From NCBI GenBank assembly GCA_015066565.1, contig SVOB01000001.1:1-64000 (forward strand): DNA of 64,000 nt. Reading direction: 5' to 3'. A model generated the notes under the pieces. The model ran no database searches, had not been told where the DNA came from, and worked only from the letters and a program-made list of their open reading frames with translations. Of this stretch, positions 52,701 to 63,374 are shown in pieces. Made by a program: the position numbers and the translations under genes. The DNA is from Oscillospiraceae bacterium. Its GTDB lineage: Bacteria > Bacillota > Clostridia > Oscillospirales > Acutalibacteraceae. Every line of letters begins with the position of its first letter. Within the stretch, counting starts at the first letter, position 1.

Positions 52701-53795
52701 ATGGAACAAAACGGTTCAAAAAACAATATGCTTGAAGCTCTGCTTAAAAAGGGCAAGGCTACGGGCAAGCTTACGACCCATGAAATCGACGATGTCATAG
52801 TCGAAATGGACCTTGACATTGAAGAGTGGGACAAGATTTACGACACCATTGAGGCTCAGAATATTCAGATTATTGATGACCTCGGTGACGCCGCTCTTGC
52901 CGACATTTCGTTTGAGGTTGAAAGCGAAAAGATTTCGGATTCAGGTTCGGCAGATTCTAAAAACGAGGGAATTGAAGATCCCGTCAAGGCTTATCTTAAA
53001 GAGATTGGCCGCGTTCCTCTTCTTACAAGTGAAGAGGAAATTGAGCTTGCAACCCGTATTGCGGATAATGACGAGCAGGCTAAAAAACGCCTTGCGGAAG
53101 CGAATCTGCGTCTTGTTGTAAGCATCGCAAAAAGATATGTCGGCAGGGGAATGCAGTTCCTTGATTTGATTCAGGAGGGCAACCTCGGTCTTTTGAAGGC
53201 TGTTGACAAGTTCGACTATACGAAGGGCTTTAAATTTTCAACCTATGCGACCTGGTGGATAAGACAGGCTATCACAAGAGCAATTGCTGACCAGGCGAGA
53301 ACAATCCGTATTCCCGTTCATATGGTTGAAACTATCAACAAGGTTAAAAAGACAATTACCTTACTGCTTCACGAAAACGGCAGGGATCCGACTGCTGAAG
53401 AGGTTTCTGAATACCTCAATATGCCCGTTGACAAGGTCCGTGAGATTATGCGTGTCGCCCAGGAACCCGTTTCGCTTGAAACACCCATCGGCGAAGAGGA
53501 AGACAGCCATCTCGGCGATTTCATCCCCGACGACGACGCTCTTGCCCCCGAGGAAGCGGCTTCGATGATGCTTCTTAAAGAACAGCTTGACGACGTTTTA
53601 AGCACACTTACTCCCCGTGAAAAGAAGGTTATTCAGCTTCGTTTCGGACTTGAGGACGGCAGACAGCGTACCCTTGAAGAAGTCGGCGAGGAATTCGGCG
53701 TTACAAGAGAGCGTATCCGTCAGATTGAGGCGAAGGCTCTTCGTAAGCTCCGCCACCCGAGCAGAAGCAAGAAATTAAAGGATTTCCTAGGTTAA
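52701..53795 (+). CDS. rpoD: RNA polymerase primary sigma factor (sigma-70/SigA)
   Basis: 364 residues. Region 1.1 (about 10-80) is acidic. Region 1.2 starts [20 protein letters not shown]. Region 2 has [22 protein letters not shown] (about 174-195), and region 4.2 ends [20 protein letters not shown]. It is the housekeeping sigma factor expected to read the TTGACA/TATAAT promoters in this window. It is followed by a strong terminator. Confidence 0.97.
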
Positions 53796-53802
53796 TATTT
53801 TA

Positions 53803-53834
53803 AGAGGATGCAATCGTTTGCATCCTCTTTTTTC
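53803..53834 (+). terminator. Intrinsic terminator of the dgt-dnaG-rpoD operon
   Basis: AGAGGATGCAA and TTGCATCCTCT with a short loop, then TTTTTTC. Confidence 0.93.
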
Positions 53835-53863
53835 TTGACTAAAAAAACACGCTGTGATATACT
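53835..53863 (+). promoter_or_regulatory. Promoter of the cobalamin operon
   Basis: TTGACT (53835-53840), 17 bp, TATACT (53858-53863) preceded by TGA. It directly follows the rpoD terminator and precedes the riboswitch. Confidence 0.85.
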
Positions 53864-53877
53864 GAAAAAGCAAATTG

Positions 53878-54117
53878 AATATACGCACTGCGGTCTTTTT
53901 GTACGTCGGTACAGAATGTAATAGGGAATCTCGGTGAAAATCCGTCGCAACAGCCATTACCGTAATCAGGGCTTGACCCTCTAAGTCGGAATACTTCCCG
54001 CAGGCGTGGTTTGAGCATTTGCTATGCCTTGGGCACTTGAAGGCGTAACCGTTGAAAGCCATTTTATATGGCTTTTTGGTGTTGCGTTTTTGTGTTAACA
54101 AAAACGCTTATTTTTTT
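53878..54117 (+). promoter_or_regulatory. Cobalamin riboswitch with terminator expression platform
   Basis: The aptamer core is recognisable from TCGGTAC, AGGGAATC (53923-53930), GGTGAAAATCCG (53933-53944), CGCAACAGCC, and AAGTCGGAATACTTCCCGC. After it come a weak hairpin (AAAGCCAT/ATGGCTTT, about 54055-54076) and a strong terminator: GCGTTTTTGT and ACAAAAACGC (54084-54107) with loop GTTA, then TTATTTTTTT. The terminator ends just before the AGGAAAGG ribosome binding site. Cobalamin binding should favour termination and shut the operon off when B12 is plentiful. Confidence 0.92.
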
Positions 54118-54137
54118 AGGAAAGGTTGGTATTAACT

Positions 54138-56354
54138 ATGAAAAACAAAAAAGTGCTTAAATTATTATCATTGTTTGCCTTGATTTGTATTCTGGCGAAC
54201 ACATTTGCCGTTGTCGGTTTTGCTTCGGACAGCGCAGAGGTAAACGTAACTATCGCTAATAACGGCGCTCCCGTTGTTTACAACGCTCCCGTTACCGTAA
54301 CGGACGTTGACGGCGATAACTCGCTTACAATTAACGACGCTTTGATTATCGCTCACACCGAGTATTATTCCGAGGGCGCCAAAGGTTATGAAACTGCAAC
54401 CACTCAGTACGGTCTCGGTATTAAAAAGCTCTGGGGCAACACAAATAACGGTAGCTTCGGCTACTATGTAAACGACGCTTCCGCCTGGAGCCTGACCGAT
54501 GCTCTTAAGGACGGCGACAACCTTTATGCCTTCTGCTATAAGGACGCTGCCTCTTATTCGGACAAGTATTCCTATTTCAATATCAAATCATTAGTTGGTA
54601 CCGAGGCGAGTGACTCATACGAGATTACCCTCAAAATGCAGGGCTATGATGAAAGTTGGAATCCTGTTGAGCTTCCCGTTGCAAACGCTGTTATCACTCT
54701 TGACGGCGTTGATACCGATTTCGTAACAGACGAAAACGGCGTTGCTTCGATAACAATTAATGATGAGTATAAACATATAATCAGCGCAAGACCCACGGAC
54801 GATTCACTGATTATTACTCCTGCCGTAATTGAAGTTAAAGGCAATGAAACAGACCTTGTTTGCGATTTCGGCGGAAACACATATTATTATTGTTATAATG
54901 CAGTTCAGAGCGGTTGGGTAGCATTTGACGGCATCAATTATTGCTTTGGTGCCGACGGCGCATTGACGACAAAAACAGTTGAAGCAAATGTTACTATCGC
55001 TAACAACGGCGCTCCCGTTGTTTACAACGCTCCCGTTACCGTAACAGACGTTGACAACGACGGCTCTTTAACAATTAACGACGCTCTGATTATTACTCAT
55101 GACGAATACTATTCGGACGGCGTAAAGGGTTATGAAACCGCAGTTACAGAATACGGTCTCGGCATTAAAAAGCTCTGGGGAAACACAAATAACGGTAGCT
55201 TTGGCTATTATGTGAACGACGCTTCCGCTTGGAGCCTTGCAGATACACTTAAAAACGGCGACGACCTTTATGCCTTCTGCTACAAGGACGCTGCCTCTTA
55301 TTCGGATAAGTATTCTTATTTCAATATCAAATCATTAGTAGGTACTGAAGCGAGCGACTCATGTGAAATTACTCTCAAAATGCAGGGCTATGACGAAAAC
55401 TGGAATCCTGTCGAGCTTCCCGTTGCAAACGCTGTTATCACTCTTGACGGCGTTGACACTGATTTCGTAACTGACGAAAACGGCGTTGCCGTAATTAAAA
55501 TTGAAGACGAAAATCAGCATATCCTCAGCGCAAGATCCATAACAGAGGGTCTTATCATTACTCCTGCTGTTATCGACGTTATCGGTGAGGAAAGGGATAT
55601 TGTCTGTGATTTCAGCGGCAACACATATTACTATTCCGATAATGCCGCACAGTCAGGCTTTAAGACCGTTGAAGGCAAAAAGTGTTATTTCGGCGCAGAC
55701 GGCGCTATGGTTAAAAAACAGCTTGTTACAATTGACGGCAAAAAGTATTATTTCGGCAAGGACGGAGATATGTACACTAAGAGACTTATCTCTGTCAAAG
55801 GTAAAAAGTATTATATGGGCGCAGACGGCGCAGCTTATACTAAGAGACTTATTTCCGTAAACGGCAAGAAGTACTATATGGGCTCTGACGGCGTTGCATA
55901 CACAAAGAGACTTATCTCCGTGAACGGCAAGAAGTATTACATGGGCAAGGACGGCGTTGCATATACAAAGAGGCTTATCTCCGTAAACGGCAAGAAGTAC
56001 TATATGGGCTCTGACGGTGTTGCTTATACAAAGAGACTTATCTCCGTAAACGGCAAGAAGTATTATATGGGTAAGGACGGCGTTGCTTATACAAAGAGAC
56101 TTATCTCCGTAAACGGTAAGAAGTACTATATGGGTAAGGACGGCGTTGCATATAAGTCAAAGCTCATTTCAGTAAACGGAAAGAAATACTATATCGGCTC
56201 TGACTGTACGGCTTACAAGTCAAAGTTCGCTTCACTCAGCGGAACAAAATACTATTTCGGTTCGGATTGTGTAATGTATAAGGGCAAGACCTTCTCGGTT
56301 AACGGCGTTAAGTGGAAGGCTGCTTCAAACGGCGTTTGCACAAAGGTTAAATAA
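54138..56354 (+). CDS. Wall-binding surface protein with two DUF4430-like modules
   Basis: 738 residues from the ATG at 54138. A signal peptide covers 1-29. Two nearly identical modules (about 34-250 and 281-500) each hold a DUF4430-like part (SFGYYVNDASAWSL, then LKDGDNLYAFCY) containing an EF-hand/dockerin-like loop (DVDGDNSLTINDA), then an Ig-like segment (ANAVITLDGVDTDFVTDENG). The last ~235 residues are eleven 21-residue YG-type repeats shared with the protein at 3995. It is the first gene after the cobalamin riboswitch, so it probably binds cobalamin or presents it at the wall. Ligand binding is inferred. Confidence 0.82.
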   Translation: MKNKKVLKLLSLFALICILANTFAVVGFASDSAEVNVTIANNGAPVVYNAPVTVTDVDGDNSLTINDALIIAHTEYYSEGAKGYETATTQYGLGIKKLWGNTNNGSFGYYVNDASAWSLTDALKDGDNLYAFCYKDAASYSDKYSYFNIKSLVGTEASDSYEITLKMQGYDESWNPVELPVANAVITLDGVDTDFVTDENGVASITINDEYKHIISARPTDDSLIITPAVIEVKGNETDLVCDFGGNTYYYCYNAVQSGWVAFDGINYCFGADGALTTKTVEANVTIANNGAPVVYNAPVTVTDVDNDGSLTINDALIITHDEYYSDGVKGYETAVTEYGLGIKKLWGNTNNGSFGYYVNDASAWSLADTLKNGDDLYAFCYKDAASYSDKYSYFNIKSLVGTEASDSCEITLKMQGYDENWNPVELPVANAVITLDGVDTDFVTDENGVAVIKIEDENQHILSARSITEGLIITPAVIDVIGEERDIVCDFSGNTYYYSDNAAQSGFKTVEGKKCYFGADGAMVKKQLVTIDGKKYYFGKDGDMYTKRLISVKGKKYYMGADGAAYTKRLISVNGKKYYMGSDGVAYTKRLISVNGKKYYMGKDGVAYTKRLISVNGKKYYMGSDGVAYTKRLISVNGKKYYMGKDGVAYTKRLISVNGKKYYMGKDGVAYKSKLISVNGKKYYIGSDCTAYKSKFASLSGTKYYFGSDCVMYKGKTFSVNGVKWKAASNGVCTKVK
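55670..56350 (+). repeat. Tandem 63-bp coding repeats
   Basis: Eleven 63-bp units encode 21-residue wall-binding repeats. Central units alternate KDG and SDG, which points to a higher-order 126-bp duplication. The same repeat family forms the 3' end of the gene at 3995 (about 6985-7615). Confidence 0.85.
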
Positions 56355-56380
56355 AACAGGTTTAAAGGTTAAATTGTTAT

Positions 56381-58264
56381 ATGAAAAGAAAAATATGTAA
56401 CAGTTTAATATGCGCAGTGCTGGCGATAATTTTTATCGTCGGCTCTGTGCCGTTTTATGCGAAATCCTCCGCTGATGAGGTTAATTCTCTTGTCAGCGGA
56501 GCTGTTTCCTATAAGGCTTCGTCTCTCGGCGTTACGGGAAAGCAGGGGATAGTTGATTATTATACCTCTGCGGGAATGGAATCCGGCGGAGAATGGTATG
56601 TTCTTTCTTTTCTTCAGAACGGAGATAAGCTGAATAATTCTTCCTATGAAAAAGCCTTAATTAATTATCTTAAGAACAATGAGGTTTATTCGGCAACCTC
56701 AAGAGAAAAATTCTCGTTAACTCTTATTGCCCTCGGAACAAAAGATAAATGGGCAAAGAATTACATATCCGAAACGGCAAATGAGGCTATAGGAAAGCAG
56801 GGTATAATGAGCCTTGTTTTCGGACTTCATCTTTTAAATAACGGGTGTAAAAGCGAGCTTTATTCCGCTTCCTCACTCGTTGAAAAAATCTTTTCTCTTC
56901 AGAATTCCGACGGCGGCTGGGCAAATTCGGGAACGGCAAGCGACGTTGACGTAACCTCGATGACGCTTCAGGCGGTTTCTTCATACAGAAAATCTTATTC
57001 GTCAAAAATAGAAAACGCTATAAACTTTTTATCTTCAAAGCAGAGTGATGACGGTGATTTTTTAAGTTACGGCGTTTATAATGCCGAAAGCACGGCGCAG
57101 GTTGTAATTGCGCTTTCTTCTCTCGGAATTGACTGTAATTCGGATTCAAGGTTTATTAAGAACTCCCATAGTGTTATTGACGGGCTTAAAAAGTTTAAGA
57201 ATTCGGACGGAAGCTTCTGCCACGTTATCGGCGGCGGAGCCAATAACAGCGCTACCTCTCAGGCTCATCAGGCTTTAGTTTCGTATTTGCGCTTTTTAAG
57301 GGGTAACGGTTCTTTTTATAAATTCAGTAATCAGTTTTCCGAAAAAACAACCTCGGATTCTGTTACGTCTACCGCTTCTCAAGGTGATTCCTCAGGCGGA
57401 AATACAAATAAAGACAAGGAAAAAACAACTTCTTCGTCAAGCGACAGACCCGAAGTTACCTCGTCGGTTGCAGTTGAAAACTCAACAGGCGTTACAAATA
57501 TGAACGGGAAGGCTTCCTCTCCGGGCGAAAACGGCGAAGAAATCAGTCAGAATGATAATGAAACCGCTTCTGACACAGGCGAAAACGAAAGCCCATCAGT
57601 TCTTTTAACCGACGAAAACGGTTCTCAGGTTGAAGAACAGAAAAACGAAAGCATAATAAGCGAAATTAAAGAGAGGGCAGGCACTCCCAAGGAACTGAAA
57701 ATAAAGCTTATAATTATATCTGTGATTGTTGCTGCGGCTGTAATTTTGTCTGTCATTCTCGTTCTTCTTAAAAAGAGAAATATCAAGAACTTTATTGTAA
57801 TCGGCGTTGCGGTAGTCATCTCGGTTACGAGCGTTCTTTTCATCAGAATACATACGGCTGAAGACTATTATAATTCTTCGGTTAATAAAAATAACACCGT
57901 CGGTCACGTTTATCTGACCGTCAGGTGCGACACGATTATGGGTAAGGACGGCGCGCCCGATAATCCCGTTATACTCGAAAAAGGCGAGTATGAGATAAAA
58001 GAGGGCGACACGGTTTATGTTGTTCTTGCCGAAGCGTTAAGAGAAAACGGTATTATGTTTGAGCATAATTCGTCATATTACATAAGCGGTATAAACAATT
58101 TATATGAATTTGAGTACGGCGACCTTTCGGGCTGGATGTACCTTGTCAATGGCGAAACCCCCTCGGTCGGTTGCGGGGAGTATGTTTTAAAGGACGGCGA
58201 CGATATTCAGTGGCTTTATACCTGCGATATAGGAAATGATTTAAAAACAGATGAAAAAAATTGA
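56381..58264 (+). CDS. Membrane-anchored intrinsic factor/transcobalamin-like protein (alpha-toroid plus DUF4430)
   Basis: 627 residues. A signal peptide covers about 1-30. Residues about 32-310 form an alpha/alpha toroid of the terpenoid-cyclase/transcobalamin type, with repeats such as LQNSDGGWANSGTASDVDVT and KNSDGSFCHVIGGGANNSAT. A S/T/E/N-rich linker (about 318-430) leads to two membrane helices (443-464 and 470-489) joined by a short basic loop. The C-terminal domain (507-616) is DUF4430, with GWMYLVNGETPSVGCGEYVL and KDGDDIQWLY. Both folded domains would lie outside the cell. The domain pair is that of animal cobalamin carriers. It follows the previous gene by 26 bases; the ecfT start overlaps its end. 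Confidence 0.85.
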   Translation: MKRKICNSLICAVLAIIFIVGSVPFYAKSSADEVNSLVSGAVSYKASSLGVTGKQGIVDYYTSAGMESGGEWYVLSFLQNGDKLNNSSYEKALINYLKNNEVYSATSREKFSLTLIALGTKDKWAKNYISETANEAIGKQGIMSLVFGLHLLNNGCKSELYSASSLVEKIFSLQNSDGGWANSGTASDVDVTSMTLQAVSSYRKSYSSKIENAINFLSSKQSDDGDFLSYGVYNAESTAQVVIALSSLGIDCNSDSRFIKNSHSVIDGLKKFKNSDGSFCHVIGGGANNSATSQAHQALVSYLRFLRGNGSFYKFSNQFSEKTTSDSVTSTASQGDSSGGNTNKDKEKTTSSSSDRPEVTSSVAVENSTGVTNMNGKASSPGENGEEISQNDNETASDTGENESPSVLLTDENGSQVEEQKNESIISEIKERAGTPKELKIKLIIISVIVAAAVILSVILVLLKKRNIKNFIVIGVAVVISVTSVLFIRIHTAEDYYNSSVNKNNTVGHVYLTVRCDTIMGKDGAPDNPVILEKGEYEIKEGDTVYVVLAEALRENGIMFEHNSSYYISGINNLYEFEYGDLSGWMYLVNGETPSVGCGEYVLKDGDDIQWLYTCDIGNDLKTDEKN

Positions 58265-59129
58265 GCAGTATAATCCGATAGTGTGTTTTCTGTACTTTAT
58301 GCTGACCTTTGCTCTGGCGGCGTTCGGTACGGACGTTATTATTACGCTCATTTCTCTTTTTTCCTCTTTGATTTTATTTGTTTTAAAATGTAAAACCGAC
58401 GCTAAGAAAAGACATATTTTTATTCTTGTTCTATTCTTTATAACCTCGTTTATAAATCCGATTACGAACCATAGGGGTGTAACGCCGCTTTTTGTTGTGA
58501 ACGATAACCCGATTACGCTTGAAGCCTTTCTTTACGGGGTTTGTATGGCGGGTACGATTTGCGGAGTGTTATATCTTTTCCTTACGTTTTCAATTGTTAT
58601 GACAAGCGAAAAGCTCATCTATGTTTTCGGGATTGTTTCGCCTAAAAGCGCCTTGCTGTTATCTATGGCTTTGAGATATGTTCCGCTTTTTATCGAACAG
58701 CATAAAAAGGTTAAAAAGGCACAGAAGGCTATGGGACTTTTCAAGGACGGAAACATCGTTGACCGGTTTAAAGGCAATATAAGAGTTTTTTCGATTATGG
58801 TTACCTGGGCGCTTGAAAACGGAATTGTTACAGCCGACAGCATGGGCGCAAGAGGCTACAGCGAAAAAAAGCGTTCGGCGTTTTCGTTTTATTCGTTTAC
58901 AAAAGCGGACGCATTTTATCTTTTAATAACGCTTTTACTTTTCGGAATTGTTTCGTTCGGAAAAATCAGGGGTGTTATAGGAACTGTGTTTTACCCCGAA
59001 TTTGTTGTAGCGGGGTTAAATATTAAATCGGCTGTTGTTTATTTCAGTTTTGCGTTATTGACGTTAATGCCGAGTATTTGTGAAGCAGAGGAGGAATTAA
59101 AGTGGAAATACTTAATGTCAAAAATTTAA
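58251..59129 (+). CDS. ecfT: ECF transporter transmembrane (T) component
   Basis: 292 residues of the CbiQ/EcfT family, with about five hydrophobic helices and the cytoplasmic coupling helices. The second coupling motif is intact (DSMGARGYSEKK); the first reads KKAQKAMGLF, so its ARG is changed to AMG. It links the S component to the ATPases. It overlaps the preceding gene by 14 bases and the ATPase gene by 28, so all are translationally coupled. Confidence 0.92.
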   Translation: MKKIEQYNPIVCFLYFMLTFALAAFGTDVIITLISLFSSLILFVLKCKTDAKKRHIFILVLFFITSFINPITNHRGVTPLFVVNDNPITLEAFLYGVCMAGTICGVLYLFLTFSIVMTSEKLIYVFGIVSPKSALLLSMALRYVPLFIEQHKKVKKAQKAMGLFKDGNIVDRFKGNIRVFSIMVTWALENGIVTADSMGARGYSEKKRSAFSFYSFTKADAFYLLITLLLFGIVSFGKIRGVIGTVFYPEFVVAGLNIKSAVVYFSFALLTLMPSICEAEEELKWKYLMSKI

Positions 59130-60730
59130 GCTTTAAATATCCGATGAATGAACTGAATACTCTAAAGAACGTGTCGTTTTCGCTTGAAAAGGGCGATTTT
59201 GCCGTGCTCTGCGGACAGACGGGAAGCGGAAAAACAACTCTTTTGAGAGCTCTTAAGCCCTCGCTTTGCCCGAGAGGTGAAAAAAGCGGAGAGATTATTT
59301 TTGAAAACAATTCGCTTTTTGACGCCGAAAAAAGCGTTGAGTTTAAAATAGGCTTTGTAATGCAGAATCCCGAACAGCAGATTGTTACGGATAAGGTGTA
59401 CCATGAGCTTGCCTTCGCTCTTGAAAATAAAAATACGCCTAAAAATGAAATAGGAAGAAGAATAGCCGAAACAGCCCAGTTTTTCGGAATTGCGGATTTG
59501 TTTGACGAGAATACCCACGTCCTGTCGGGCGGACAGAAGCAGATACTTAATCTCGCTGCGGTTTCGGTTATGCAACCCGACTTGATAATTCTTGACGAGC
59601 CTACGGCACAGCTTGACCCCGTTGCGGCAGTTGACTTTATAACCGTACTCAAAAAACTCAATACCGAAATGGGAATTACCGTTCTTATTTCGGAACACAG
59701 ACTTGAAGAGCTTCTCGGAATAGCGAATAAGCTCATAGTTCTTGAAAACGGTGAAATAAAGGTCTGTGACGAGGTTAAAAAGGCTGTTAAAGACCTTTCT
59801 CCCGAGGACAGAATTATCGAATATATGCCCGCCCCCGTAAGACTTTTCAAATCGGTCAAAAGCGAAAGCGAATGTCCGCTTAACGTAAACGACGGAAAAA
59901 GCTTTATTGAAAACAATTTCAAAAATGAAATCAATACGTTTCCCGTTGAAGAAAAGCCGGAATTAAAGGATAAGGCGATAGAACTCAAAAACGTCTTTTT
60001 CAGATATTCAAAGGAGTCGCCTGACGTTCTTTGCGACCTTTCTCTGACCGTTTATAAAAACGAAATATTTTCTGTTCTCGGCTCCAACGGAAGCGGCAAG
60101 ACCACGGCGTTAAACTGTATTTCGGGTCTATTAAAGCCATACAGCGGAAAGATTAAGATTTTTAATAAAAAAATCAGCGAATATAAAAATAATTCGCTTT
60201 ACATTAACTGCCTTTCAATGATGCCTCAGGATATAGGCACGGTATTTCTTAAAAACACTGTCAGGGAAGAGCTTGAAGAGGTTGGCGCGCTTAAAAATGA
60301 CTTGCCGTTTGATTTGAGCTATCTTTACGACAGACACCCTTACGATATAAGCGGCGGCGAACAACAGCTTTTAGCTCTTGCAAAAGCTCTTTCTTCAAAG
60401 CCCGAGCTTTTAATTCTTGACGAGCCGACAAAGGGACTTGATAACTGTTTTAAGAAGCAGTTCGCTTCAGTCCTTGAAAGCTTAAAGGAAAACGGCGTGA
60501 CGGTTGTAATTGTAACCCATGACGTCGAATTTGCTTCCGACGTTTCCGACAGATGCGCTTTTCTTTTCAGGGGCAGGGTAGTGTCCGAAGAAGCTTCTCA
60601 TAAATTTTTTGAAAGCAACAGCTTTTATACAACGCCTGCCAGCAGAATGACAAGGGGATATTACGACAGGGTAATAAGCGTAGAGGAAGCTGTTGAAATG
60701 ATTATAAAAAACGGCGGTGAAAGAGTATGA
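59102..60730 (+). CDS. ECF transporter ATPase, fused EcfA-EcfA' pair
   Basis: 542 residues from a GTG at 59102, after GGAGG (59090-59094). Two complete ABC ATPase domains are joined in one chain. Domain 1 has GQTGSGKTTLLRAL, LSGGQKQILN and LIILDEPTAQLDP; domain 2 (from about 297) has GSNGSGKTTALNC, ISGGEQQLLAL and LLILDEPTKGLD. Both keep all catalytic residues. The fused form suggests a dedicated rather than shared ECF energising module. Its TGA overlaps the ATG of the S-component gene. Confidence 0.94.
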   Translation: MEILNVKNLSFKYPMNELNTLKNVSFSLEKGDFAVLCGQTGSGKTTLLRALKPSLCPRGEKSGEIIFENNSLFDAEKSVEFKIGFVMQNPEQQIVTDKVYHELAFALENKNTPKNEIGRRIAETAQFFGIADLFDENTHVLSGGQKQILNLAAVSVMQPDLIILDEPTAQLDPVAAVDFITVLKKLNTEMGITVLISEHRLEELLGIANKLIVLENGEIKVCDEVKKAVKDLSPEDRIIEYMPAPVRLFKSVKSESECPLNVNDGKSFIENNFKNEINTFPVEEKPELKDKAIELKNVFFRYSKESPDVLCDLSLTVYKNEIFSVLGSNGSGKTTALNCISGLLKPYSGKIKIFNKKISEYKNNSLYINCLSMMPQDIGTVFLKNTVREELEEVGALKNDLPFDLSYLYDRHPYDISGGEQQLLALAKALSSKPELLILDEPTKGLDNCFKKQFASVLESLKENGVTVVIVTHDVEFASDVSDRCAFLFRGRVVSEEASHKFFESNSFYTTPASRMTRGYYDRVISVEEAVEMIIKNGGERV

Positions 60731-61413
60731 GCGCCTTGAACGAACAAAAACTGAAAAAGGCGCTGAGCATTATTCTTCCCTGTTTTGTAATGCCCGTTGT
60801 AATTGTTGTCGGCTCGCTTTATTCAAGAGAAAAGAGCTACGCCTTGTCAAGCCTTGTACTTGCGCTTTTGTCGCTCGTACTGTTTCTTTGCGGCTTTGAA
60901 AGCAAGAACACGGGTACAAGACGGCTTGTAATTATTGCGATTATGGTTGCGTTAAGCTCTCTCGGAAGATTAATTCCGATAGTCAAGCCCGTTACCTTTT
61001 TAGTTGTAATTACGGGTATCACTCTCGGACCTCAGGCGGGATTTCTAACTGGCGCTTTTTCGGCTGTAATCTCAAATATCAGCTTCGGTCAGGGCCCCTG
61101 GACGCCGTTTCAGATGTTTGCCTGGGGAATGCTCGGCTTTATAGCGGGACTTCTTGAAAAGCCTTTAAACAGGAAGAAAGCTTATTTATATCTCTACCTT
61201 TTCTTCGGCGGGGTTTTCTATTCGTTTATAATGGATATCTGGACTGTTCTCTGGTATGAACAGGGCTTCGTTCCGGAGCTCTATAAAGCGGCGATTATTT
61301 CGGCAATTCCCTATACTCTCGTCTATGCCTGTTCAAACGTTGTGTTTGCGGTTTTACTTGCAAAGCCTATGTGCGAAAAGCTTAACCGAGTGAAAATAAA
61401 ATACGGTGTTTAG
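60727..61413 (+). CDS. ECF transporter substrate-binding (S) component, probably for cobalamin
   Basis: 228 residues with about seven hydrophobic segments and the ECF S-component look: RRLVIIAIMVALSSLGRL (the first-helix coupling motif region), ITLGPQAGFLTGAFSAVISN and GPWTPFQMFAWGMLGF. The last gene of a B12-riboswitch operon next to a transcobalamin-like receptor, it most likely takes up cobalamin, as predicted for CbrT-type S components. Substrate assignment rests on context. Two extra N-terminal helices (about 15-55) precede the usual six. Confidence 0.85.
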   Translation: MSALNEQKLKKALSIILPCFVMPVVIVVGSLYSREKSYALSSLVLALLSLVLFLCGFESKNTGTRRLVIIAIMVALSSLGRLIPIVKPVTFLVVITGITLGPQAGFLTGAFSAVISNISFGQGPWTPFQMFAWGMLGFIAGLLEKPLNRKKAYLYLYLFFGGVFYSFIMDIWTVLWYEQGFVPELYKAAIISAIPYTLVYACSNVVFAVLLAKPMCEKLNRVKIKYGV

Positions 61414-61418
61414 CGGTT

Positions 61419-61444
61419 GGTTGATTATTCAATCAACCGTTTTT
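61419..61444 (+). terminator. Terminator of the cobalamin operon
   Basis: GGTTGATT and AATCAACC with loop ATTC, then GTTTTTAA. Confidence 0.85.
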
Positions 61445-61553: not shown

Positions 61554-63374
61554 ATGAAAAAAAGAGAAGATGTAAGAAATATTGCTATTATTGCCCACGT
61601 TGACCACGGTAAAACAACGCTGGTTGACCAGATGCTCCGTCAAAGCGGTACTTTCCGAGAAAACGAGCAGGTGCAGGAAAGGGTAATGGACTCAAACGAC
61701 CTTGAAAGAGAAAGAGGAATAACAATCCTTTCCAAGAATACGTCCGTTCATTATAACGGCGTTAAAATCAATATTGTAGATACTCCCGGTCACGCTGATT
61801 TCGGCGGCGAGGTTGAGCGTATTATGCAGATGGTTGACGGCGTACTTTTACTTGTTGACGCTTTTGAGGGCTGTATGCCTCAAACACGCTTTGTTCTTAA
61901 AAAGGCGTTGAATTTAAGAAAAACCGTTCTCGTTGTAATTAATAAAATTGACCGCCCCGGCGCCAGACCCGCCGAGGTTATTGACGAGGTTCTGGATTTG
62001 TTTATCGAACTCGGCGCTGACGAAGACCAGCTTGAATTCCCCGTAGTTTACGCTTCGGCAAAGGACGGCTATTCTTCGCTTGACCCCGATGACAGACAGG
62101 GCGATATGGGACCGCTTCTCGATTCAATTCTCAAAAATATTGAACCGCCCGAGGGCGTTATCGAAGCGCCTGTTCAGATTCTTATTTCTTCACTCGGTTA
62201 TGACGACTATGTAGGAAGAATCGGTATCGGAAGAGTTGAGAGAGGAATAATAAAGAGAAATCAGCAGGTAGTTCTCTGTAAGACTGACGGAAATCAGGAA
62301 AACGTCAAGATTTCAAAGCTCTATCAGTTCGAGGGACTTAAAAGGCAAGAGGTCGAAGAGGCTTCGGCAGGCGATTTAATCGCGATTTCTGGAATTTCCG
62401 ATATAAATATCGGTGAAACAATCTGCGACAGCGAATGTATTGAACCGCTTCCCTTTGTTAAGATTGACGAGCCAACTCTGTCAATGAATTTCATTGTAAA
62501 CGACAGCCCGTTCGCGGGAAGAGAGGGTAAGTTTGTAACCTCCCGTAATCTTCGCGACAGACTTTTTAAAGAGGTTGAAACCAACGTCAGTATGCGCGTT
62601 GAAGAAACCGAAAGCACCGATACATTTAAGGTTTCGGGCAGGGGTGAGCTTCACCTTTCAATTCTCATTGAAACAATGCGCCGTCAGGGCTATGAATTCC
62701 AGGTTTCAAGACCCAAAGTTATTATGAAAAAGGAAAACGGAAAAACCCTTGAGCCTATGGAATTGTTGATAGTTGAGGTTCCCGAGCAGTACGTCGGCGC
62801 GGTAATGGAAAAAATCGGTTCACGTAAGGGCGAGCTTGAAAATATGGGCGCCCGCCAGGGCGGTGCAACCCATCTTGAATTCAAAATACCAGCAAGAGGA
62901 CTTATCGGCTACCGTTCGGAGTTTATGACGGACACAAACGGAAACGGTATTATGAACAACCTTTTCGCAGGTTATGAGGAATACAAGGGCGATATCCAGA
63001 CCCGTGAAAGAGGCTCGATCGTTGTTCACGAAACAGGAACTACAACGGGTTACGGACTTTTCAATACTCAGGACAGGGGACGTCTTTTCGTAGGACCCGG
63101 CGTTGATGTCTATGAGGGAATGATAGTCGGCGAATGCGCAAAGAACGAGGATATAACCTGCAACGTATGCAAATCAAAGCATCTGACGAACACCCGCGCT
63201 TCAGGCTCCGATGACGCTTTAAGGCTTGTTCCTCCGAGCAATCTCAGCCTTGAGCAGTGCATGGAATTTATTAAGGACGACGAATTGCTGGAGGTTACTC
63301 CCGTTTCGCTGCGTCTGAGAAAAAAGATACTCGCAAAGGACTTAAGACTAAAAGAACAGTTCAGAAATAAGTGA
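61554..63374 (+). CDS. typA: Translational GTPase TypA/BipA
   Basis: 606 residues. G motifs: AHVDHGKTTL (G1), RERGITI (G2), DTPGHADF (G3), NKIDR (G4). EF-G-like domains III and V follow, and the unique C-terminal domain (about 485-600) includes NVCKSKHLTNTRASG. It binds 70S ribosomes and assists 50S assembly under stress. GGGTGAG precedes the ATG. A thioesterase gene follows after 8 bases. Confidence 0.96.
   Translation: MKKREDVRNIAIIAHVDHGKTTLVDQMLRQSGTFRENEQVQERVMDSNDLERERGITILSKNTSVHYNGVKINIVDTPGHADFGGEVERIMQMVDGVLLLVDAFEGCMPQTRFVLKKALNLRKTVLVVINKIDRPGARPAEVIDEVLDLFIELGADEDQLEFPVVYASAKDGYSSLDPDDRQGDMGPLLDSILKNIEPPEGVIEAPVQILISSLGYDDYVGRIGIGRVERGIIKRNQQVVLCKTDGNQENVKISKLYQFEGLKRQEVEEASAGDLIAISGISDINIGETICDSECIEPLPFVKIDEPTLSMNFIVNDSPFAGREGKFVTSRNLRDRLFKEVETNVSMRVEETESTDTFKVSGRGELHLSILIETMRRQGYEFQVSRPKVIMKKENGKTLEPMELLIVEVPEQYVGAVMEKIGSRKGELENMGARQGGATHLEFKIPARGLIGYRSEFMTDTNGNGIMNNLFAGYEEYKGDIQTRERGSIVVHETGTTTGYGLFNTQDRGRLFVGPGVDVYEGMIVGECAKNEDITCNVCKSKHLTNTRASGSDDALRLVPPSNLSLEQCMEFIKDDELLEVTPVSLRLRKKILAKDLRLKEQFRNK

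Follow-up and report, generated by a model that had tools for sequence, protein, structure and literature searches.

The locus analyzed here is a five-gene operon on the plus strand of a 64-kb stretch of DNA from an Oscillospiraceae bacterium (contig SVOB01000001.1; the whole stretch is called the window below), which is real as a unit and most likely serves to scavenge vitamin B12 and other cobamides. The operon spans positions 53835-61444, and its open reading frames (ORFs) lie between rpoD (52701-53795) and typA (61554-63374). An earlier annotation of the same DNA (the original prediction) had described one promoter, a cobalamin riboswitch with a terminator, five tightly packed genes, and a closing terminator. 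The ORF coordinates bear out the packing, with 26 bases between the first two genes and overlaps of 14, 28, and 4 bases at the remaining three junctions, and a terminator-like hairpin closes the operon (Table 1); an additional one is found at 53802-53829. The single promoter is less secure: a promoter-like site does precede the riboswitch, but such matches are no more frequent in the region than in shuffled sequences (10 observed versus 13.2), so that the call rests on its position.

Table 1. Predicted features of the cobalamin capture and import operon (window coordinates)
Feature	Position	Strand	Basis or remark
Promoter-like site TTGACT-17-TATACT, TG before the second hexamer	53835-53863	+	Consensus match 10/12
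Cobalamin riboswitch aptamer, compact, without long P6 extension	53874-54015, core 53912-54010	+	RF00174 and relatives' model R1
P13 hairpin TATGCCTT[GGGCACTTG]AAGGCGTA	54023-54047	+	Loop GGGC (54031-54034) can pair with L5 GCC
Intrinsic-terminator-like hairpin, then TTATTTTTTT; presumed expression platform	54084-54107	+	Hairpin scan
Wall protein, 738 aa from ATG 54138 (ORF open from TTG 54126)	54138-56354	+	ORF call, Pfam, reading
Transcobalamin-like membrane protein ("56381 protein"), 627 aa	56381-58264	+	PF14478 E 1.5e-18, PF13243 E 6.4e-7
EcfT, CbiQ family, CbrV-like by role, 292 aa	58251-59129	+	PF02361 E 2.4e-10
Fused EcfA-EcfA' ATPases, CbrU-like by role, 542 aa, GTG start	59102-60730	+	PF00005, two stretches
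Energy-coupling factor (ECF) S component, CbrT-like, 228 aa	60727-61413	+	PF12822 E 1.2e-11; best solved relative 6fnp_A
Closing terminator-like hairpin	61412-61441	+	Hairpin scan

The riboswitch was identified by comparison with related loci. A covariance model (R1), built from the aptamer cores of 20 relatives with the window sequence excluded, matches the aptamer core with 64.2 bits (E 3.9e-18), a score that rules out a chance match, and has no second match anywhere in the window up to E 1. For a wider view, a scan of public genomes yielded 326 relatives, of which the best 80 were analyzed, so that rates among these 80 loci are upper estimates. R1 gave 67 matches in 63 of the 80 loci, all on the operon strand and 20 of them training sequences; the next operon gene 3' of the match is the wall gene in 59 cases, EcfT in six, and the 56381 homologue in two. 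The Rfam model RF00174 was run on the 66 family genomes that have a match to the 56381 protein (out of 150, window's genome included; the 84 genomes without a match were left out), where it detects 53 riboswitches in 47 genomes. Thirty-seven of these (36 of 52 without the window) are followed on their own strand, 229-5530 bases downstream, by a 56381 homologue, compared with an upper-bound chance expectation of 0.6 of 52 for placement within 6 kb on that strand. The window aptamer is the sole RF00174 match in its own genome up to E 0.001.

Three observations count against this assignment. Rfam at gathering thresholds, whose rejection of the aptamer the original prediction had regarded as refuting, reports only a T-box and tRNA in the window and no cobalamin riboswitch; under permissive settings RF00174 matches with E 3.8e-4, but its 23.7 bits fall short of the 31.5 set as gathering score. 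There is no R1 match in 17 of the 80 loci, five of which start at a contig edge, and 16 of the 53 RF00174 matches are not near a same-strand 56381 homologue. The Rfam rejection is a sensitivity gap, because among 15 loci chosen from those with an R1 match the gathering thresholds recover a cobalamin-clan riboswitch in seven and miss it in eight. At the equivalent place, related loci carry Rfam-accepted riboswitches that match RF00174 or RF01689 (AdoCbl-II), and the R1 match reflects the conserved core and B12 box that the window aptamer has in common with these bona fide relatives. The riboswitch and its terminator-like hairpin are retained from the original prediction.

Further evidence comes from the kissing loop between L5 and L13. 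From 68 aptamers (the 67 matches and the window), 26 without a usable L5 or P13 hairpin were dropped; in the 42 kept, the two loops are complementary in 33 hairpins with wobble pairs allowed (25 without them), versus 24.4 in shuffled sequences (p 5e-5), and in 26 of 35 when only distinct hairpins are counted (p 2.5e-4), both p values being optimistic because the sequences are related. In the window itself, L5 GCC fits its own L13 GGGC. An alternative partner for L5 in a downstream AUGGC hairpin was inconsistent among nine loci; the hairpin with a loop starting GG is consistent. A possible anti-terminator pairing (CGCAACA/TGTTGCG) in the window and its closest relative is a weak seven-base match and was given no weight.

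The operon is conserved as a unit. All five genes occur in order in 66 of the 80 loci, and the wall gene adjoins the 56381 homologue, among the detected operon genes, in 75; 63 loci have an R1 match. Judging from the record titles, most of the relatives are Ruminococcus from rumen and gut, along with other Clostridia. Coupling between the surface genes and the importer is not universal, since in four loci an additional cobalamin riboswitch separates the 56381 homologue from EcfT (L171 at 10704, L174 at 10684, L178 at 10480, and L187 at 10495) and two (L175 and L180) have no wall gene detectable by blastp. A split version of the system is encoded on the Latilactobacillus curvatus plasmid CP117684.1 (L190, 6791-12433), where an LPXTG gene with a toroid match and a DUF4430 gene stand apart, accompanied by EcfT, an ATPase, and an S component.

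The second gene of the operon encodes a protein consisting of a signal segment, an alpha/alpha toroid (residues ~40-325), a Ser/Thr-rich linker, two membrane helices (443-461 and 472-490 by hydropathy) joined by a KKRNIKN loop, and a DUF4430/SLBB domain (542-614). The Pfam matches exceed their cut-offs for PF14478 (DUF4430; 67.5 bits versus 23.8) and PF13243 (29.1 versus 26.1), while PF00432 in the toroid part is slightly below its own; no other protein in the genome matches PF14478 up to E 0.1. The helix pair is a constant feature: when the region from mid-protein to the last 100 residues was examined in the 79 homologues of more than 500 aa, two hydrophobic segments were counted in 78 and three in one, with the same result under a tighter window setting. 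By the positive-inside rule, the toroid and SLBB domain, as the two halves of a putative transcobalamin-like clamp, should both lie outside the membrane. In nine of 20 fetched family loci the two domains are encoded by separate neighboring genes on the same strand, a hint that they work as a pair. For the toroid, the solved structures listed by a profile search were mainly terpene cyclases and alpha-2-macroglobulins, and transcobalamin was not among them, so the comparison with transcobalamin rests on the shared domain pair. These domains also occur in another context: a stretch of a Vescimonas fastidiosa plasmid (L191, 4765-14801) combines genes for DUF4430 and terpene-cyclase-like proteins with neighbors encoding MoxR, DUF58, transglutaminase, and dockerin proteins, and no ECF gene is seen in the stretch examined.

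The original prediction of two surface DUF4430 proteins is correct for the 56381 protein only, as the wall protein has no PF14478/DUF4430 match in Pfam scans, nor is the family among the 25 of 76 families listed. In the wall protein, a hydrophobic segment at the N-terminus is followed by a duplicated conserved unit, which by reading may combine a divergent SLBB domain with an Ig-like domain, and by C-terminal choline-binding-type repeats (PF01473, E 9.6e-19); among the 80 loci, these repeats have a blastp match only in the closest relative, L129. Wall relatives elsewhere are shorter; in many the C-terminus runs from PKTGD through a hydrophobic stretch to basic residues, and a Gram_pos_anchor match (E up to 1) is present in 13 of 42 members. 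Two relatives have a dockerin (PF00404, E ~1e-9; L115, 7417-8964, and L130, 7397-8959), which would place them on a cellulosome-like scaffold.

Corrinoid binding by the wall protein is the least certain part of the system. It is quite possible that B12 uptake is the work of the importer and the 56381 protein while the wall protein performs another job, such as adhesion, scaffolding, or docking, and binds no corrinoid. The absence of a DUF4430 match points that way, as do the failure of hhalign to match the wall unit with DUF4430 or SLBB profiles, the choline-binding-type repeats here and the dockerins in two relatives, and the two loci lacking a detectable copy. In favor of a role in capture, the wall gene is the usual first gene after the riboswitch, and pairwise shuffling of wall unit and SLBB sequences from 25 loci gave a weak signal that is highest for the window pair (z 5.08; mean 0.95 over the 25 loci versus -0.08 for a toroid control, with 9 of 25 at or below 0.25). 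Since no profile match links the unit to DUF4430 or SLBB, its proposed role in B12 capture rests on co-conservation.

The importer is complete, as originally predicted: Pfam confirms EcfT (PF02361), two fused ABC_tran ATPases, and the S component (PF12822). The fused ATPases score 310.9 bits with TIGR04520, whose curated cut-off is 315. The S component is related to CbrT. In a single-sequence search of solved structures its best match was 6fnp_A (E 1.4e-9), and a profile of 20 members matches 6FNP chain A, from the B12 transporter ECF-CbrT (PMC5997447), with E 1.6e-17; this relationship supports a predicted importer of the B12 type. The CbrT match leaves out ~60 extra N-terminal residues (window 60727-60900) with two hydrophobic segments; the 20 aligned S proteins all have an N-terminal part. 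ORFs of the EcfA pair are fused to the S component in five of 16 cases in 20 family loci and in one of 75 in the 80 public loci, two sets that have a few loci in common; such fusions tie the S component to the ATPase pair. Single ORFs of 869-1172 aa (mechanical starts) combining EcfA, EcfA', and S were noted in L074, L075, L076, L081, L084, and L171. Another gene of the CbiQ family is found elsewhere in the genome, so that a separate module exists and the one in this operon is plausibly dedicated.

We also asked what the host could do with an imported corrinoid. In its genome, which is 99.25% complete, no CobS was found up to E 0.1 (controls positive in 11 of 14), only one TP_methylase is present, and neither FecCD/BtuC nor NrdJ was found (controls positive). 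The operon has no B12 biosynthesis gene, as predicted, and this now extends to the genome as far as these families tell; the bacterium appears unable to make vitamin B12, and the operon would be its only recognized B12 importer among the families searched, which did not include BtuM and MetE. The likely consumer, a MetH-like protein, combines a homocysteine S-methyltransferase domain and a pterin-binding domain with both B12-binding domains. As a point against this picture, the protein is short, covering positions 204-858 of the 1182 in TIGR02082 below the cut-off (622 of its 788 residues were scanned). Three other PF02310 matches, all below the cut-off, are in radical SAM proteins.

These data bear on the nature of the substrate. 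The operon could import an incomplete corrinoid (cobinamide, cobyrinate diamide) or some other precursor of B12 that the cell then completes internally. CbrT carries cobinamide as well as cobalamin (PMC5997447), and a review lists cbrUVT under cobyrinate diamide uptake (PMC8123684), both of which count against the import of complete cobamides alone. Without CobS the lower loop cannot be completed by the usual route, and with a single TP_methylase in the genome we regard this alternative as improbable. Still harder to sustain is that the S component imports another vitamin (folate or riboflavin) or a different tetrapyrrole, the corrinoid link being regulatory only. It draws on a Pfam ECF-ribofla_trS match (E 1.5e-11) and a weak match to the folate family TIGR04518 (28.8 bits versus a cut-off of 60), against which the S profile places CbrT far above the next matches, 4hzu_S (1.1e-4) and a riboflavin uptake protein (0.0079), and cobalamin riboswitches stand at the locus across relatives. 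A folate or riboflavin S component was rejected accordingly, in agreement with the original prediction, which would have failed on assignment to another vitamin. Least credible is a CbiMNQO-type cobalt transporter, which the membership of EcfT in the CbiQ Pfam family might suggest, as there is no CbiM or CbiN match among the five genes, the S component is CbrT-like, the NCBIfam CbiQ equivalog scores 19.9 bits versus 111.8, and no corrin synthesis was found that would need cobalt.

We therefore consider it very likely that the locus is a riboswitch-controlled operon for the capture and import of complete cobamides in a Clostridia-type cell that apparently cannot synthesize its own. Under corrinoid shortage, transcription would read through the hairpin upstream of the wall gene; binding of a corrinoid to the compact aptamer would favor the L5-L13 kissing loop, and the terminator would then shut the operon off. 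The wall protein would reside in the cell wall, and the 56381 protein, spanning the membrane twice, could close its external toroid and SLBB domain on one cobamide like the two domains of animal transcobalamin and hand the ligand over to the CbrT-like S component. EcfT and the fused EcfA-EcfA' pair would power ATP-dependent uptake, chiefly feeding the MetH-like methionine synthase.

The ligand of the riboswitch deserves separate consideration. Adenosylcobalamin (AdoCbl), which the original prediction had suggested for probing the RNA, may be the wrong ligand, because neither of two Pfam adenosyltransferase families was found in the genome (controls positive). Loss of btuR in B. subtilis left the btuF riboswitch blind to supplied cyanocobalamin (PMC9600662), so that a cell without an adenosyltransferase must either import ready-made AdoCbl or use a switch reading another form. 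With compact aptamers defined by an RF00174 span below 160, an adenosyltransferase was detected in two of 10 genomes with a compact aptamer and in 27 of 37 with a long one (Fisher p 0.0037, for related genomes that include that of the window). The link between aptamer form and ligand is weakened by the 10 long-aptamer genomes that likewise have no detected adenosyltransferase, by three relatives matching RF01689 (AdoCbl-II), and by compact class IIb switches, which bind AdoCbl (PMC11260477). A more specific scheme, which we put forward tentatively and hold to be rather doubtful, is a three-step relay in which a wall-anchored, in some relatives dockerin-bearing, SLBB-like scavenger passes the cobamide to a membrane-hairpin transcobalamin closing outside the membrane and then to a dedicated CbrT-type importer, under a compact riboswitch that would read a cobalamin form other than AdoCbl, as the cell would be unable to make the latter.

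As an unrelated feature of the window, a T-box leader (RF00230, 23537-23762 on the minus strand, 124.2 bits) lies ahead of pheS-like and pheT-like genes, named by reading; this is an ordinary arrangement.

The concept of such an operon is not new. Surface proteins that pair SLBB with a toroid, encoded in operons that also contain CbiO and CbiQ, were reported by Burroughs et al. 2007 (PMC1796856) from hosts that for the most part do not synthesize B12, and were suggested to scavenge B12 or its precursors. The Gram-positive surface capture system of the original prediction is supported in its B12 control and B12-type importer, and is anticipated as an idea. The operons of 2007 have the same SLBB domain and alpha/alpha toroid, often a second extracellular paralogue, a CbiO-like ATPase, and a CbiQ-like membrane protein. 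The operon described here appears to differ in its CbrT-like S component, its compact riboswitch, the two-helix segment between toroid and SLBB, and a first gene that is not a recognizable SLBB protein; the riboswitch, the S component, the wall-anchored first gene, and the lack of detected AdoCbl synthesis are what is newer. Searches of open-access papers returned no experimental test of the 2007 proposal, most subscription journals being outside this scope. In ruminants, cbrV and cbrT are reported to occur frequently among the genomes of Clostridium and Ruminococcus (PMC9306216), and the accessible text of that report names no surface capture proteins. The system is widespread and, as far as the searched literature shows, little studied. 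The present locus is a compact, complete, and widely conserved unit, every step of which can be assayed, and it makes the 2007 prediction ready for testing; it also draws attention to a riboswitch form that Rfam thresholds miss in about half of the loci tried.

Compared with RF00174 and RF01689, the window aptamer has the same conserved core, B12 box, and L5-L13 kissing loop; by reading, its P6 arm is short, a single hairpin, and its L5 region, CAACAGCCATTACCGT, is unlike the RF00174 consensus. Among functional analogues, the Bacteroides surface B12-binding proteins BtuG and BtuH capture B12 outside the cell ahead of an importer, as the proteins of this operon would if the function assigned here is right; the likeness is one of working principle, and BtuG and BtuH belong to a Gram-negative outer membrane with TonB-dependent import. 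Animal transcobalamin and intrinsic factor also combine an alpha/alpha toroid and SLBB/DUF4430 in one protein (PMC1796856), whereas the 56381 protein is tethered to the membrane between the two, the likeness being one of domains. With ECF-CbrT of Lactobacillus delbrueckii (PMC5997447) and CbrTUV (PMC8123684, PMC9306216) the operon shares a CbrT-like S component, EcfT, and an EcfA pair. Eight S components of L. delbrueckii are predicted to rely on a single common ECF module (PMC5997447), whereas here EcfT, EcfA-EcfA', and S are encoded together, and the operon adds the surface proteins and an N-terminal extension of the S component with two hydrophobic segments.

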